From the NCBI RefSeq assembly GCF_014836535.1, contig NZ_JACSQP010000001.1:126849-190848 (forward strand): a DNA stretch of 64,000 nt. The letters run 5' to 3'. This DNA is from Microbacterium pullorum (GTDB lineage: Bacteria > Actinomycetota > Actinomycetes > Actinomycetales > Microbacteriaceae). The position numbers were made by a program, and so were the translations under genes. Within the stretch, counting starts at the first letter, position 1; the number at the start of each line of letters is the position of its first letter. The notes beneath the pieces are model-generated. The model saw nothing but the letters and a program-made list of their open reading frames with translations, searched no databases and was not told where the DNA came from. Shown piece after piece: positions 36,072-41,714 of the stretch.

Positions 36072-36140
36072 GTGAGACGAATACGGACGGACGAGACCCT
36101 GGGTGACACCCGCCGTCTCGTCCGTCGGTATTCGTCTCAC
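36072..36140. repeat. Palindromic repeat family 2, copy A
   Basis: 69 bp. The two 26-nt arms are complementary at 25 positions, starting GTGAGACGAATAC and ending GTATTCGTCTCAC; the loop contains GGGTG-ACA-CCC. The marR stop codon (36137-36139) lies inside the right arm. Confidence 0.88.
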
Positions 36141-36625
36141 GGGGTGGGCGGGGGCGGGGGCGGGGGCGGGGGCGGGGTGCCGGCGGACAGGGCGTGGAGG
36201 AGACGCGCGAGGCTGCGGATCTCGTCGACCGACCACTCCTCGAGGGAGGCGGCCAGCGCGTTCTCCTGGGGGGCGCGCGCGGCGTCCAGGCGCTCCAGCC
36301 CCTCGGGTGTCGCCGAGAGCAGGCTCGCGCGGCCGTCGGACGGGTCAGGCGTGCGCTGCACGAGGCCGAGCTGCTCGAGCTCGCGCACCGTGCGGCTGAG
36401 CTGACCCTTGTCGACCAGCAGGTGTTCGGCCAGTGCCGACTGGGTCACCGACCCCCGGCGCACGATGGTCGTGAACACCTTGTAGGCGCCGGGCAGCATG
36501 CCCGGGCTGATGCGATTCGCGTGCTCGGTGACGACACGACGGAACTGCCCGATCAGCTCTCCGAACTCGGCCTCGAGGGCGCGCACCGCTTCGGTGCGGG
36601 CAGCTCGAGACTGGTCGTCGCTCAT
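36137..36625 (-). CDS. MarR-family repressor of the adjacent MFS exporter
   Basis: 162 residues. MarR winged helix: FRRVVTEHANRISPGML, RRGSVTQSALAEHLLVDKG, LVQRTPDPSDGRASL. The tail ends in ten consecutive prolines, encoded by hexamer CGGGGG-type repeats at 36145-36178, and the stop lies in a palindrome arm. ATG 36625 begins 10 nt after the MFS stop; an upstream in-frame ATG would overlap the MFS gene and is rejected. It probably binds the three operators at 38447-38507. Confidence 0.87.
   Translation of the reverse strand: MSDDQSRAARTEAVRALEAEFGELIGQFRRVVTEHANRISPGMLPGAYKVFTTIVRRGSVTQSALAEHLLVDKGQLSRTVRELEQLGLVQRTPDPSDGRASLLSATPEGLERLDAARAPQENALAASLEEWSVDEIRSLARLLHALSAGTPPPPPPPPPPTP
36145..36178. 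repeat. CGGGGG hexanucleotide microsatellite in marR
   Basis: About five uninterrupted GGGCGG/CGGGGG units encoding the polyproline tail of MarR. A slip by one unit adds or removes two Pro without changing the frame. Confidence 0.75.
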
Positions 36626-36635
36626 CGTGCTCACT

Positions 36636-38387
36636 TTAGCGGCGGCGATCACGCACGTCGGCTGCAGCTGCAGCGTCGGCGTCGTCCCCGGCATCGGTTC
36701 GGGTGTCCGTGGGCGAGGTGGCTGCGGCATCCCCCACATGCCGGGTCGTGCCCACCGGGGCGACCGACTCCATGCCGACCGGCACCGACACCGTCGCCAG
36801 GTCGGCCTCGGCGGCGCGCATGCGCTCGGTCGTGGTCATGCGGTTCAGCGGCTTGTTGGGCAGGAACACGATCGCCACGAGACTGATCACGGCGAAGGGC
36901 ACCGCGATGAGGAACGAGCGCGAGATGCCGTTGGCGTAGATGTCCTCGAACACGACGCGCAGCGCCGCGGGCATGGCCGCGACCTGGGGGAGGGCGCCGG
37001 TCTGCAGCTGTGCGACCCAGGTCGGCGCCTCGTCGCCGAGACTCGCCAGTGCCGCCGTGATGTCGCCGGTGCGCTGGGCGACGAGGTCGGTCACGGTCGC
37101 GGCCAGGGCGGCGCCCATCACCGCGACGCCGGCGGTGCCGCCGAGGCTGCGGAAGAAGGTGACCCCCGAGCTCGCGACGCCGATCTGCTCGGGCTTGGCG
37201 GTGTTCTGCACCACGAGCACGAGGTTCTGCATCGTCATGCCGACGCCGGCGCCGAGGAGGAACATGTAGATCGAGACGAGCGTGAAGTCGGTGTCGTACT
37301 CGACCGTCGCGAGCATGGTGGCGCCGGCGATCAGCATCACCGCGCCCGTCACGAGGAACGCCTTCCATCGTCCGCTCCGGGTGATGAGCGCGCCGACCCC
37401 GATCGAGGCGATGAGCTGCCCGGCGATCATCGGGAGGGTCATGAGCCCGGCCTCGGTGGGGGTGGCCCCGCGGGCGAGCTGCATGTACTGGCTGAGGTAG
37501 ACCGCGGCGCCGAACATCGCGATGCCGGTGGCGATCGACGCGACGACGGCGAGGGTGAACGTGCGGTCGCGGAAGAGCGAGAGCGGCACCAGGGGCTCGG
37601 ACGAGCGCAGCTCCACGAGCACGAACAGGGCGGAGCCGATGAGTCCGCCGCCGACCATCAGCACCGTCTCGAGGCTCCACCAGGCGAACGTGTCGCCGGC
37701 GAGGGAGACCCAGATGAGCAGCAGCGAGACCGAGACCGCCAGCAGGACGATGCCGAGGTAGTCGATCTTCACCTTCTTGGCCGGGCGCGGCGGCACGTGG
37801 AGCGTGCGCTGCACGATGATGAGCGCGAGGACGGCGACCGGGAGGGCGACGAAGAAGTTCCAGCGCCAGCCCCAGACGTCGGCGATGACGCCGCCCAGCA
37901 GCGGGCCGCCCACGGTGGCGACGGCCATGACCGCGCCGAACAGACCCATGTACCTGCCGCGCTCTCGCGGGCTCAGGATGTCGGCCATGAGCACCTGGCT
38001 GAGGGCGGCGAGACCGCCGGCGCCGATGCCCTGCACCGCGCGGAAGGCGATCATCGTCTCGGTGTTCTGCGAGAAGCCGGCGGCCGCGGTGGCGACCACG
38101 AAGACCACGATCGCGAGCTGGAACAGCAGTTTGCGGTTGGTGAGGTCGGCGAGCTTGCCCCAGATCGGGGTGGAGATCGCCGTCGTCAGCAGCGTGGCCG
38201 TGACGACCCACGTGAACGCCGACTGGTTGCCGCCCAGGTCGTGGATGATGACCGGCAGCGACGTCGAGACGACGGTCGAGGCGAGCATCGACACGAACAT
38301 GCCGAGGAGCAGCCCGGAGAGGGCCTTGAGCACCTGGCCACGGGTCATCTTCTTCGGCGGGGTGGCGGGCATGTGCGGGGTCGGCAC
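36636..38387 (-). CDS. DHA2-type MFS multidrug exporter (14 helices)
   Basis: 583 residues with 14 hydrophobic segments, motif A GKLADLTNRK and motif C region GLFGAVMAVATVGGPLLGG. The Asp/Glu-poor C-terminal tail of about 60 residues is cytosolic. The GTG at 38387 is 8 nt from GAGGAG. The gene is first in an operon with marR, and its promoter is covered by three GTTGA-N6-TCAAC sites. Confidence 0.9.
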   Translation of the reverse strand: MPTPHMPATPPKKMTRGQVLKALSGLLLGMFVSMLASTVVSTSLPVIIHDLGGNQSAFTWVVTATLLTTAISTPIWGKLADLTNRKLLFQLAIVVFVVATAAAGFSQNTETMIAFRAVQGIGAGGLAALSQVLMADILSPRERGRYMGLFGAVMAVATVGGPLLGGVIADVWGWRWNFFVALPVAVLALIIVQRTLHVPPRPAKKVKIDYLGIVLLAVSVSLLLIWVSLAGDTFAWWSLETVLMVGGGLIGSALFVLVELRSSEPLVPLSLFRDRTFTLAVVASIATGIAMFGAAVYLSQYMQLARGATPTEAGLMTLPMIAGQLIASIGVGALITRSGRWKAFLVTGAVMLIAGATMLATVEYDTDFTLVSIYMFLLGAGVGMTMQNLVLVVQNTAKPEQIGVASSGVTFFRSLGGTAGVAVMGAALAATVTDLVAQRTGDITAALASLGDEAPTWVAQLQTGALPQVAAMPAALRVVFEDIYANGISRSFLIAVPFAVISLVAIVFLPNKPLNRMTTTERMRAAEADLATVSVPVGMESVAPVGTTRHVGDAAATSPTDTRTDAGDDADAAAAADVRDRRR

Positions 38388-38446
38388 GGGTGGGGCTCCT
38401 CGAGGGTCGTGGCGGGGCAACGGCGCGACGACACTGGCGAACGAAA

Positions 38447-38462
38447 GTTGACGCGAGTCAAC
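38447..38462. promoter_or_regulatory. MarR operator 1
   Basis: GTTGACGCGAGTCAAC, a 16-bp palindrome of form GTTGA-N6-TCAAC. Lies just downstream of the predicted transcription start. Confidence 0.7.
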
Positions 38463-38463
38463 G

Positions 38464-38479
38464 GTTGAGACTTGTCAAC
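38464..38479. promoter_or_regulatory. MarR operator 2
   Basis: GTTGAGACTTGTCAAC, same form as site 1, 17 bp centre-to-centre from it. It overlaps the -10 element. Confidence 0.72.
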
Positions 38480-38506
38480 AATAGGTCAATCGTTGATGAG
38501 CGTCAA
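38478..38506 (-). promoter_or_regulatory. Promoter of the MFS-marR operon
   Basis: On the minus strand TTGACG (38501-38506), 17 bp, then TATTGT (38478-38483), giving a leader of about 85 nt before the GTG. The -35 is within operator 3 and the -10 within operator 2, so bound repressor would exclude RNA polymerase. Confidence 0.7.
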
Positions 38507-38507
38507 C
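38492..38507. promoter_or_regulatory. MarR operator 3
   Basis: GTTGATGAGCGTCAAC, 28 bp centre-to-centre from operator 2, covering the -35 element. Confidence 0.7.
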
Positions 38508-38546
38508 CATGTTGTCGCGCGCGCCGGTGGGGCGAGTGCTCGCTCG

Positions 38547-38588
38547 GCGAGTAAGCCGCGGGCGGGGAGCGAGTAAGCCGCGGGCGGG
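38547..38588. repeat. 20-bp direct repeat beside the YqaJ gene
   Basis: GCGAGTAAGCCGCGGGCGGG occurs at 38547-38566 and 38569-38588, overlapping the YqaJ stop region. Probably a local duplication. Confidence 0.7.
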
Positions 38589-39245
38589 TCAGTCGGCGAG
38601 GGCGAGGGCGCGGAAGGGCTCGCGCGGGGCGACGGGAGATGCGGGTGGCGTGAGGAGGGTGCGGCGCTGCGTGCGGTGGTACAGCTCGTCGATGAGCGCG
38701 GTGGCGAGCTTCACGAGCTTGGCGATCTCGTCGTCGTCGCGGTCGACCCAGGCGCAGCGCGGCTCGTCGCCGATGGGCACGAAGTCGACGTGCTGCTCCC
38801 AGGTCACGAGCGTCCGCTCGGCGCCGAGCACGTGCTGCTGCCACCACACCTGCCGCATGTAGGTGCGGGGGATCGAGCGCCAGTGCTTGTTGGTGGTCTT
38901 GATCTCGGCGAGGATCACGCGCCCGTCGCCGTCGAGCCCGACGCCGTCGGGGGTCGCGAGGTGGCGCTTCTCGACGACGGCGTGGAAGAGCGCCGAGGAG
39001 GGTTGGATGCCATGGGTCGCGGCCACCCACGCCGCGATCTCCGGCTCGCGTCGGCGGCCGTGGTCGGTGTAGGCGTTGCCCGAGAACCCGGATCCGCCCA
39101 GCTTCGCGTCGGCGGCGCGCGCGATCGACTTCTCGGAGGTGAGTGCGGCGACGTCGGTCGCGGTGATCCCCCGCGAGCGCGCCCGCGTCCACGCCACCCG
39201 GTCGCGGGAGTCCGCGACGATCCTGGCAGCGAGTTCGGGTGTCAC
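38589..39245 (-). CDS. YqaJ-type (lambda exonuclease-like) nuclease
   Basis: 218 residues. Nuclease core: RGITATDVAALTSEKS, GRRREPEIAAW, then TPDGVGLDGDGR and ILAEIKTTNKHW, which give the D..ExK metal site, and QVWWQQHVL. Phage relatives degrade one strand for recombination. No single-strand annealing partner or other phage gene is near, so this is a lone chromosomal copy. The GTG start has TAGGGT (39253-39258) 7 nt upstream. Confidence 0.82.
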   Translation of the reverse strand: MTPELAARIVADSRDRVAWTRARSRGITATDVAALTSEKSIARAADAKLGGSGFSGNAYTDHGRRREPEIAAWVAATHGIQPSSALFHAVVEKRHLATPDGVGLDGDGRVILAEIKTTNKHWRSIPRTYMRQVWWQQHVLGAERTLVTWEQHVDFVPIGDEPRCAWVDRDDDEIAKLVKLATALIDELYHRTQRRTLLTPPASPVAPREPFRALALAD

Positions 39246-40533: not shown

Positions 40534-41541
40534 TCATGTCCGGGCAGCCGCGGGCGGGGCGGTGGAGTTGCGCACGATGAGCCGGGCCTCCAGCCGGTGC
40601 TCGACGGGGGCAGCGGCCGCGGTGCCCAGCGTCGACACGAGCAGCTCGGCGGCGGCGATGCCCTGATCGCGCGGCTGCTGCGCGAGGGTCGTGAGCGAGA
40701 ACATCTCGGCGTACTCGTGGTTGTCGATCCCCACGACGCTGAGTCCCGCCGGCACCGGGATCGCCAGCTGGCGGGCGGCCACGATGGCCCCGATGGCGAC
40801 CTCGTCGCACACCGCCACGAGCGCGGTCGGGCGGCGCCGGGCGTCACTGAGTTCATCGACGGCCACGGCGTAGCCGCCGGGCAGCGACGTGGGCGACGCG
40901 ATGTGCCGGGGGAGATGCCCCGCTGCCGCCATCGCCCGGCGGTAGCCCTCGTACCTCGCGGCATCCACTCGCTGCCATGGCGTCTCCGTCCCCCCGCCCA
41001 CGAACGCGATATCGGTGTGCTGCAGGGCCAGCAGGTGCTCGGTCGCGCGCTGCGCGGCGTGCGTGTCATCGATCGTCACGATGCTGATGTCGGCGCTTGC
41101 GCCGACGACGCTCACGACGGGGCGTCCGATGCGCAGCAGCCGCTCCAGCTCGTGGTCGTCGGGGTCCAGCCCGACCGCGATGAGTCCGTCGAACCGCTTT
41201 CGCGCCAGGAAATCGTCGAAGATGCGGCGTCGGCCCTCGGTGCCGGGCCGTGCGTCGTAGAGGGTCAGGTCGAGGCCGTGCCGCAGCAGCGTCGCCTGGA
41301 TGCCCTCGAGCACCTCGGCGAAGAACCAGCGGTTCAGACGCGGCATGATCACCCCGACGTTGCGCGTGCGGCCGGTCGCCAGGCTCACCGCGCTCGTGGA
41401 AGGCACATAACCCAGTTCTGCCGCCGCTTCCTGCACCCGCTGACGGGTCTGGTCCGACACCTGGGTGCTGCCGGTGAGGGCGCGGCTGGCGGTGGCCTTC
41501 GAGACCCCCGCGCGACGCGCGACATCGGCGATTCCGCTCAT
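40534..41541 (-). CDS. LacI-family repressor of the adjacent sugar ABC importer
   Basis: 335 residues. HTH at residues 3-25 (GIADVARRAGVSKATASRAL), hinge LATGRTRNVGVIMP, then a periplasmic-binding-like sugar domain. ATG 41541 has AAGGAG 8 nt upstream. A perfect operator TGGAACCGGTTCCA lies upstream of its own start and a close variant before the transporter. Confidence 0.9.
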   Translation of the reverse strand: MSGIADVARRAGVSKATASRALTGSTQVSDQTRQRVQEAAAELGYVPSTSAVSLATGRTRNVGVIMPRLNRWFFAEVLEGIQATLLRHGLDLTLYDARPGTEGRRRIFDDFLARKRFDGLIAVGLDPDDHELERLLRIGRPVVSVVGASADISIVTIDDTHAAQRATEHLLALQHTDIAFVGGGTETPWQRVDAARYEGYRRAMAAAGHLPRHIASPTSLPGGYAVAVDELSDARRRPTALVAVCDEVAIGAIVAARQLAIPVPAGLSVVGIDNHEYAEMFSLTTLAQQPRDQGIAAAELLVSTLGTAAAAPVEHRLEARLIVRNSTAPPAAART

Positions 41542-41591
41542 CAGTGAACTCCTTCGGCGCACCGGCAGCTCGGTTGTCTCGTCCTCGAGCC

Positions 41592-41605
41592 TGGAACCGG
41601 TTCCA
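41592..41605. promoter_or_regulatory. LacI operator O1
   Basis: TGGAACCGGTTCCA, a perfect 14-bp palindrome with the central CG typical of LacI sites, 51 bp upstream of the regulator ATG. Autoregulation is likely. Confidence 0.7.
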
Positions 41606-41714
41606 TCGAATGATTCCATGAGTGAGGTGGTTTTGGCCAGTGTGGAAAAAACATGCCCCGATTGGGTGGGAGCGCGACCACGACGCCTGGTTATCGAGTT
41701 GTTATCTCCGGGAG

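Follow-up and report, generated by a model that had tools for sequence, protein, structure and literature searches.

Upstream of an operon that encodes an MFS efflux pump and a MarR-family regulator, Microbacterium pullorum carries three palindromic sites of the form GTTGA-N6-TCAAC, and the question that the locus raises is whether these are the operators of that regulator and, if so, what is achieved by having several of them at spacings that place neighbours on different sides of the DNA. We have addressed it in the window, by which we mean the whole 64-kb stretch of M. pullorum DNA that was analysed, and by comparison with related genomes. As judged from sequence, MarR very probably represses its own pump operon through these operators, and it is fairly likely that neighbouring MarR dimers bind to them cooperatively.

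Candidate operators and predicted promoter in the window

An exact-pattern search of the window returned GTTGA-N6-TCAAC three times, with both 5-bp half-sites exact and at the very positions given by the original prediction (38447, 38464 and 38492), against no match at all in 100 dinucleotide shuffles of the sequence. The centre spacings are likewise those claimed, 17 bp between operators 1 and 2 and 28 bp between operators 2 and 3. The N6 cores (CGCGAG, GACTTG and TGAGCG) differ, so the operators are not copies of one repeat. As 16-bp palindromes, two of which overlap the -35 and -10 elements, they fit the description of MarR-family operators (16-20 bp, at an adjacent or own promoter) in the passages of the literature on which we draw. 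The coordinates of all features are collected in Table 1.

Table 1. Features of the MFS-marR operon, its promoter and its surroundings (window coordinates).
Feature	Coordinates	Strand	Description
Operator 1	38447..38462	.	GTTGACGCGAGTCAAC; third site, 17 bp downstream of operator 2 (transcription direction)
Operator 2	38464..38479	.	GTTGAGACTTGTCAAC; -10/start site
Operator 3	38492..38507	.	GTTGATGAGCGTCAAC; minus-strand left half includes -35 TTGACG
-35 hexamer TTGACG	38501..38506	-	Promoter scan of 38300-38700
-10 hexamer TATTGT	38478..38483	-	Promoter scan of 38300-38700
DHA2-family (EmrB-type) MFS efflux pump gene	36636..38387	-	GTG start after GAGGAG ribosome-binding site
marR, MarR-family winged-helix regulator	36137..36625	-	10 nt past pump stop codon, last in operon
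YqaJ-like exonuclease gene	38589-39245	-	Ends upstream of operators, same strand as operon
Palindromic repeat element	36072..36140	.	At marR end, overlaps marR stop codon

The scan of 38300-38700 for promoters yielded a sole sigma-70-like match, on the minus strand (TTGACG-17 nt-TATTGT; shuffled mean 0.0). The original prediction had placed its -35 in site 3 and its -10 in site 2: the first placement stands, as the -35 lies entirely within operator 3, and the second does not, as the -10 merely abuts operator 2, entering it by its last two bases (GT, the first two of the operator on the minus strand) and leaving the other four in the flank. Operator 1 falls just past the predicted transcription start, near 38471. 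A single base pair separates the two neighbouring palindromes, and because the 17-bp step corresponds to 1.6 helical turns, these sites lie on different faces of the helix.

The assignment of the two genes is based on profile matches. The pump, whose start codon was picked by inspection, matches PF07690 (E 1.6e-51) and TIGR00711 efflux_EmrB (254.9 bits; cut-off 230.2), and the marR product matches both PF12802 (MarR_2; 51.8 bits, E 8.9e-14, cut-off 27) and PF01047 (MarR; 51.0 bits, E 1.3e-13, cut-off 24.6). The order of the genes, with marR at the end, is also as predicted.

Several other features of the region were recorded. The palindromic element at the marR end is a dispersed repeat, with 24 arm matches in its own genome at up to 3 mismatches (reversed control 0), several of which form inverted pairs 43 bp apart; it is possibly a terminator. 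At positions 36146-36177 the end of marR contains 5.3 perfect tandem copies of the 6-bp unit GGGCGG, where the gene encodes a ten-proline run (residues 151-160), and another perfect tandem repeat, of 1.9 copies of 22 bp, occupies 38547-38588, in the interval from the operators to the YqaJ-like gene. Beyond that gene, the segment 39360-39500, ahead of the L10-L7/L12 ribosomal protein genes, is by eye what we take to resemble an L10 leader; Rfam at its gathering threshold reported one tRNA in the whole window, and no L10 leader. A LacI-like gene (by eye) is found near the operon at 40534-41619.

In the complete genome (3,113,556 bp) the three operators are the only exact matches to the pattern, the reversed-pattern control giving 1 per strand, so that the genome search that had been suggested as a means of defining a regulon added no further site. 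Relaxing the half-site to GTTGM gives 5 sites, compared with 7 for the reversed control; the two extra sites are thus at chance level, and a wider regulon of exact or GTTGM sites in M. pullorum was rejected on these counts. Operator matches with one or two mismatches number 1521 per strand, versus 660 in the reversed control, and may include weaker sites.

Promoter architecture across relatives

The comparison was carried out on 82 non-redundant pump promoters, many of them fetched via the site pattern itself, the duplicates L073, L110 and L111 and the loci without a pump match (L080 and L102) having been dropped. A core pair of sites is present in 80 of them (the exceptions being L098 and L119), in agreement with the prediction that the operators belong to the promoter of the MFS-marR operon. 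The upstream core site bears the TTGAC of the -35, and the downstream one begins directly after the fourth base of the -10, whose hexamer is TATAGT in 52 promoters, TATCGT in 11, TATGGT in 9 and some other sequence in 8. The two sites are 28 bp apart in 48 promoters, 29 bp in 27 and 30 bp in 5; since the half-site sequence TTGAC doubles as the consensus of the -35, this spacing is set by the promoter itself. Outside the -35 site a T is found two bases before in 75 of the 80 promoters and an A two bases after in 73, symmetric positions that a wing reaching into the minor groove may contact. The N6 cores take 115 distinct forms in 160 sites and are never the same in the two members of a core pair (0/80), which indicates that what is conserved is the half-sites.

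Further sites were sought with up to 2 mismatches, at offsets of up to 60 bp outside the core pair. They occur at +17 in 35 promoters and at -17 in 11, with one each at +39 and -34; that is, 46 of the 48 matches are 17 bp away from the core pair, upstream or downstream of it, and the one at -34 (L112) represents a second 17-bp step. When at most 1 mismatch is allowed, the numbers become 35 at +17 and 4 at -17. The fetching of loci by pattern could inflate the number of sites, but not a preference for exactly 17 bp. We have repeated the count with relaxed half-sites in loci mostly chosen by MarR homology, omitting L104-L119, whose short flanks do not include marR: a site at +17 was found in 14 of 40 single-MarR loci and one at -17 in 3, while among the sister operons with two marR genes described below the site is at -17, 17 bp upstream, in 24; other offsets amount to 1 overall. 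The window's clade has its third site, where there is one, downstream of the core pair, and the paralogous clade has it upstream. On a tree of 35 MarR proteins (L099 and L199 left out) the promoters with a third site are clustered without forming a single group; 6 changes are needed, compared with a mean of 11.1 after shuffling, and well-supported branches force only 1 of them. A history with one gain of the third site was not adopted, gain and loss being alike compatible with this tree.

This near-exclusive spacing of the third site supports the earlier suggestion of something more than repression by a single dimer. Whether the dimers touch is a separate matter: MarR may bind each site independently, without any contact between dimers, which would be a variant of self-repression and not an alternative to it. 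The 28-30 bp pair would then be fixed by the distance between -35 and -10, and indeed it matches ordinary promoter spacer lengths, while the third site would be a mere extra operator; it is absent from both sides in 34 of the 80 promoters, and thus not essential. We see this variant as a serious possibility, though on balance not a probable one, because the extra sites are concentrated at 17 bp on both sides of the promoter, because no promoter element dictates the position 17 bp upstream, and because the same preference recurs in loci mostly chosen by MarR homology. Cooperative binding of neighbouring dimers, which is fairly likely, is the reading that we retain.

The location of the third site is also relevant to the idea that operator 1 acts as RNA, by forming a 5'-leader hairpin at which transcription would be terminated or attenuated. 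A terminator scan does flag operator 1 (a 6-pair stem and 4-nt loop, followed by TTTCGTT), and its hairpin is part of the predicted fold of the leader; nevertheless, the leader as a whole is no more stable than its shuffles (z -0.51), the letters of the half-sites are nearly invariant and not merely complementary, and the third site of the paralogous clade lies upstream of the -35, where it would not be transcribed from this promoter. On the strength of the leader stability and of the upstream third site we have discarded this highly improbable explanation.

Linkage of the sites to the pump and to MarR

Of the 295 genomes of the genus, 142 contain the tandem pair of exact sites (the reversed control is 0 in every row), a count of related genomes, and as such not of independent events. 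Each of the 30 pair loci that were fetched via this pattern, all from other genomes, has a pump homolog directly downstream. Across the order, 19 of the 396 genomes sampled, belonging to 5 of 109 genera, carry the tandem pair; the window's genus, of which 18 were sampled, contributes 12 of these genomes, and the other 7 are from outside it, with the pair again upstream of a pump homolog in all 7 loci (L104-L108, L118, L119). The six named MarR orthologs (63-74% identity) are all from Microbacterium, and in every case the pump is preceded by a core pair, accompanied in 4 of the 6 loci by a third site at 17 bp; 3 of the 6 (L200, L203, L204) are contigs already counted among the other loci. In the 7-kb loci of four distant MarR relatives (from Kitasatospora, two Streptomyces and a Comamonadaceae MAG), no pump homolog was found with E up to 1e-10, and there are no clustered operator sites.

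A relaxed pair (TTGA-N6-TCAA, with a gap of 13-17 nt) was found in 200 of the 295 genus genomes. It is present in 128 of 132 genomes whose best MarR match has E up to 1e-52, in 60 of 92 with a best match between 1e-52 and 1e-25, in 7 of 54 between 1e-25 and 1e-15, and in 5 of the 17 where no MarR match reaches E 1e-15 (G201, G214, G250, G265, G280). Of the four pairless genomes of the first class, two (G118, G288) have no exact site and a marR gene that is not next to a pump, and in the other two (G120, G182) the pair is altered by mismatches. From the middle class, which includes 32 pairless genomes, 12 of these were fetched. In 9 of the 12 there is a core pair that contains GTTGC halves or mismatches, in 2 marR is not accompanied by the pump, and in the last one no core pair is seen. 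The loci fetched from the class between 1e-25 and 1e-15 mostly have a -35 site of the GTTGC type.

The marR loci that lack an adjacent pump (L080, L187, L190, L195) contain no exact operator in the 2.8-3.5 kb that were fetched. At L187 (from G118), where marR adjoins a YqaJ-like neighbour (by eye), pump and operators are both absent; one deletion would explain this loss, and so the case shows linkage but not, by itself, function. Overall, the comparative evidence supports the view that the sites are tied to the MFS-marR operon.

A challenge to the identity of the binding protein comes from L102, where two perfect GTTGACGCGCGTCAAC sites, separated by 42 bp (L102:3023-3080), have a LacI-like regulator gene on one side and, on the other, a solute-binding-protein-like gene that diverges from it (both by eye). 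The pattern alone is thus not specific, and GTTGA-N6-TCAAC is probably a consensus used by another regulator family too. It is conceivable, then, that in the window the sites are bound by a regulator encoded elsewhere, for example of the LacI or TetR type, with marR a bystander or acting at some other place; the LacI-like gene at 40534-41619 is near, and the pair also occurs in 5 of the 17 genomes that lack a MarR match at E up to 1e-15. We consider this improbable, since the exact sites are unique in the genome and track the pump-marR operon, and are missing in the four loci where marR is found without the pump; moreover MexR, as described in the portions of its literature cited below, sets a precedent from the same protein family.

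Sister operons with two marR genes

A sister type of operon in the genus consists of the pump followed by two tandem marR genes (L090-L097, L120-L186; e.g. L090:450-3300). With a limit of E 1e-25, 81 of 295 genomes have a relative of MarR2, a count that includes some single-marR operons. The core pair is absent in 12 of 76 two-MarR loci, 9 of which (L130, L132, L134, L137, L168, L170, L173, L176, L182) were fetched without their promoter, judging by gene distances and contig ends; the real misses are L098, L151 and L199. Among the 64 two-MarR loci with a core pair, the -35 site has at least one GTTGC half in 58 and both halves, as GTTGC-N6-GCAAC, in 40. Most of the sister operons combine a -35 site of this kind, GTTGC-N6-GCAAC or mixed, with GTTGA-N6-TCAAC at the -10. 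Among the 40 single-MarR loci, 9 also show a C half in their -35 site, on both sides in only 1 (L178, where MarR2 alone was found). The recognition helix in the window's clade is most often DKGQ(L/I)SRTVRELE; in two-MarR loci the most frequent forms are DKSV(I/V)SRQVRMLE for MarR1 and DKSAVSR(Q/H)VRQLE for MarR2.

The two paralogs may share one promoter via separate sites, and clade history alone could also be the cause of the difference between GTTGC and GTTGA sites. The reading of mixed A/C half-sites as the target of a heterodimer was not taken as established, because the two classes of locus are separate groups of related genomes and C halves occur in single-MarR loci as well. In a broader proposal, which as a whole we regard as rather doubtful, a MarR-pump module widespread in actinobacteria would include the 17-bp spacing as a fixed unit of cooperation, found at one or the other end of the promoter according to lineage, and in the sister lineage GTTGC-N6-GCAAC at the -35 and GTTGA-N6-TCAAC at the -10 would be divided between two paralogous repressors, or bound by their heterodimer.

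Proposed mechanism and significance

In the mechanism that we propose, one MarR dimer would occupy each 16-bp palindrome, 5'-GTTGAC-N4-GTCAAC-3' with A/T-rich outer flanks, and one recognition helix would be inserted at each GTTGA half. The dimer on operator 3 would hide the -35, the dimer on operator 2 would mask the start point together with the last bases of the -10, and the dimer on operator 1, on a different face of the helix, would probably stabilise the one on operator 2; with RNA polymerase excluded, expression of the operon would be low. Upon binding of a pump substrate or related ligand to MarR, the dimers would leave the DNA, pump and repressor would be made together, and the repressor, made last, would shut the operon again. 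We infer in this scheme the binding of MarR, the cooperation of its dimers, their release by ligand, the export of a substrate or inducer by the pump, and the point at which transcription starts.

These results provide a well-defined operator for the efflux-pump repressor of a large environmental genus, together with natural variants in operator spacing and number from more than 100 loci. The 17-bp unit, found on either side of the promoter, is a natural test set for cooperation between MarR dimers, and the A/C difference in the half-sites is one for the sharing of a promoter by tandem MarR paralogs.

Comparison with known systems

Among the matches listed from the open-licence PMC literature there is no report on this operon or operator. 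By analogy, MexR appears to be the closest functional counterpart of the window MarR, which would work like MexR but is not MexR. The mexR and mexA genes are divergent, and MexR serves an RND pump from the intergenic region shared with mexA, whereas in the window the pump is of the MFS type and marR is the last gene of the same operon; there are two operators for MexR versus three in the window. The MexR chain 1lnw matches the window MarR with E 4.6e-4, behind 2nnn, 9u7b, 8ylf, Rv0880 and others, and the two proteins are thus distant members of one family.

Our facts on MexR are drawn from passages of PMC9892617 and PMC10609311. According to them, this MarR-family efflux repressor of Pseudomonas aeruginosa binds two regions that overlap the mexR and mexA promoters, PI and PII, each with inverted GTTGA sequences (PMC9892617). 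The PII oligonucleotide GTTGACCTTATCAAC has the form GTTGA-N5-TCAAC (PMC9892617), so that the half-sites are separated by N5 there and by N6 in all three window operators. As far as these passages go, MexR resembles the window MarR, acting as we propose, in that it represses both an efflux operon and its own gene through operators that overlap promoters and are built of GTTGA/TCAAC half-sites. The same source describes two adjacent sites as common in MarR-regulated operators, with a role that it calls unresolved (PMC9892617).

A structural parallel for the closely spaced neighbours is offered by Rv2887 of Mycobacterium tuberculosis, two dimers of which are reported to sit next to each other on a 30-bp DNA, on nearly opposite faces and with 15 bp each (PMC5526998). 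This is close to the 17 bp between neighbours in the window, and suggests that the arrangement is structurally ordinary. In the passages of that paper on which we rely, Rv2887 reads a G/C-rich site indirectly and not a GTTGA palindrome, and no efflux operon is mentioned (PMC5526998).

CrtR of Corynebacterium glutamicum, another member of the MarR family with homologs reported in Microbacterium, shares with the window MarR its actinobacterial origin and, by the account in the parts of the two papers used here, an autorepressor site that overlaps the -35 and -10 and a 52-bp footprint suggestive of several dimers; it differs in its essential motif, which is TTAA with no GTTGA, and in controlling carotenoid genes from a divergent position (PMC5401885, PMC6739363). 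A regulator of the CrtR type was rejected for the window, as TTAA is absent from 38440-38515 and the operon encodes an MFS pump, not carotenoid genes. Within this range of systems, the window operon is a well-conserved example of the known self-regulated MarR-pump operons in which several operators cover the promoter.
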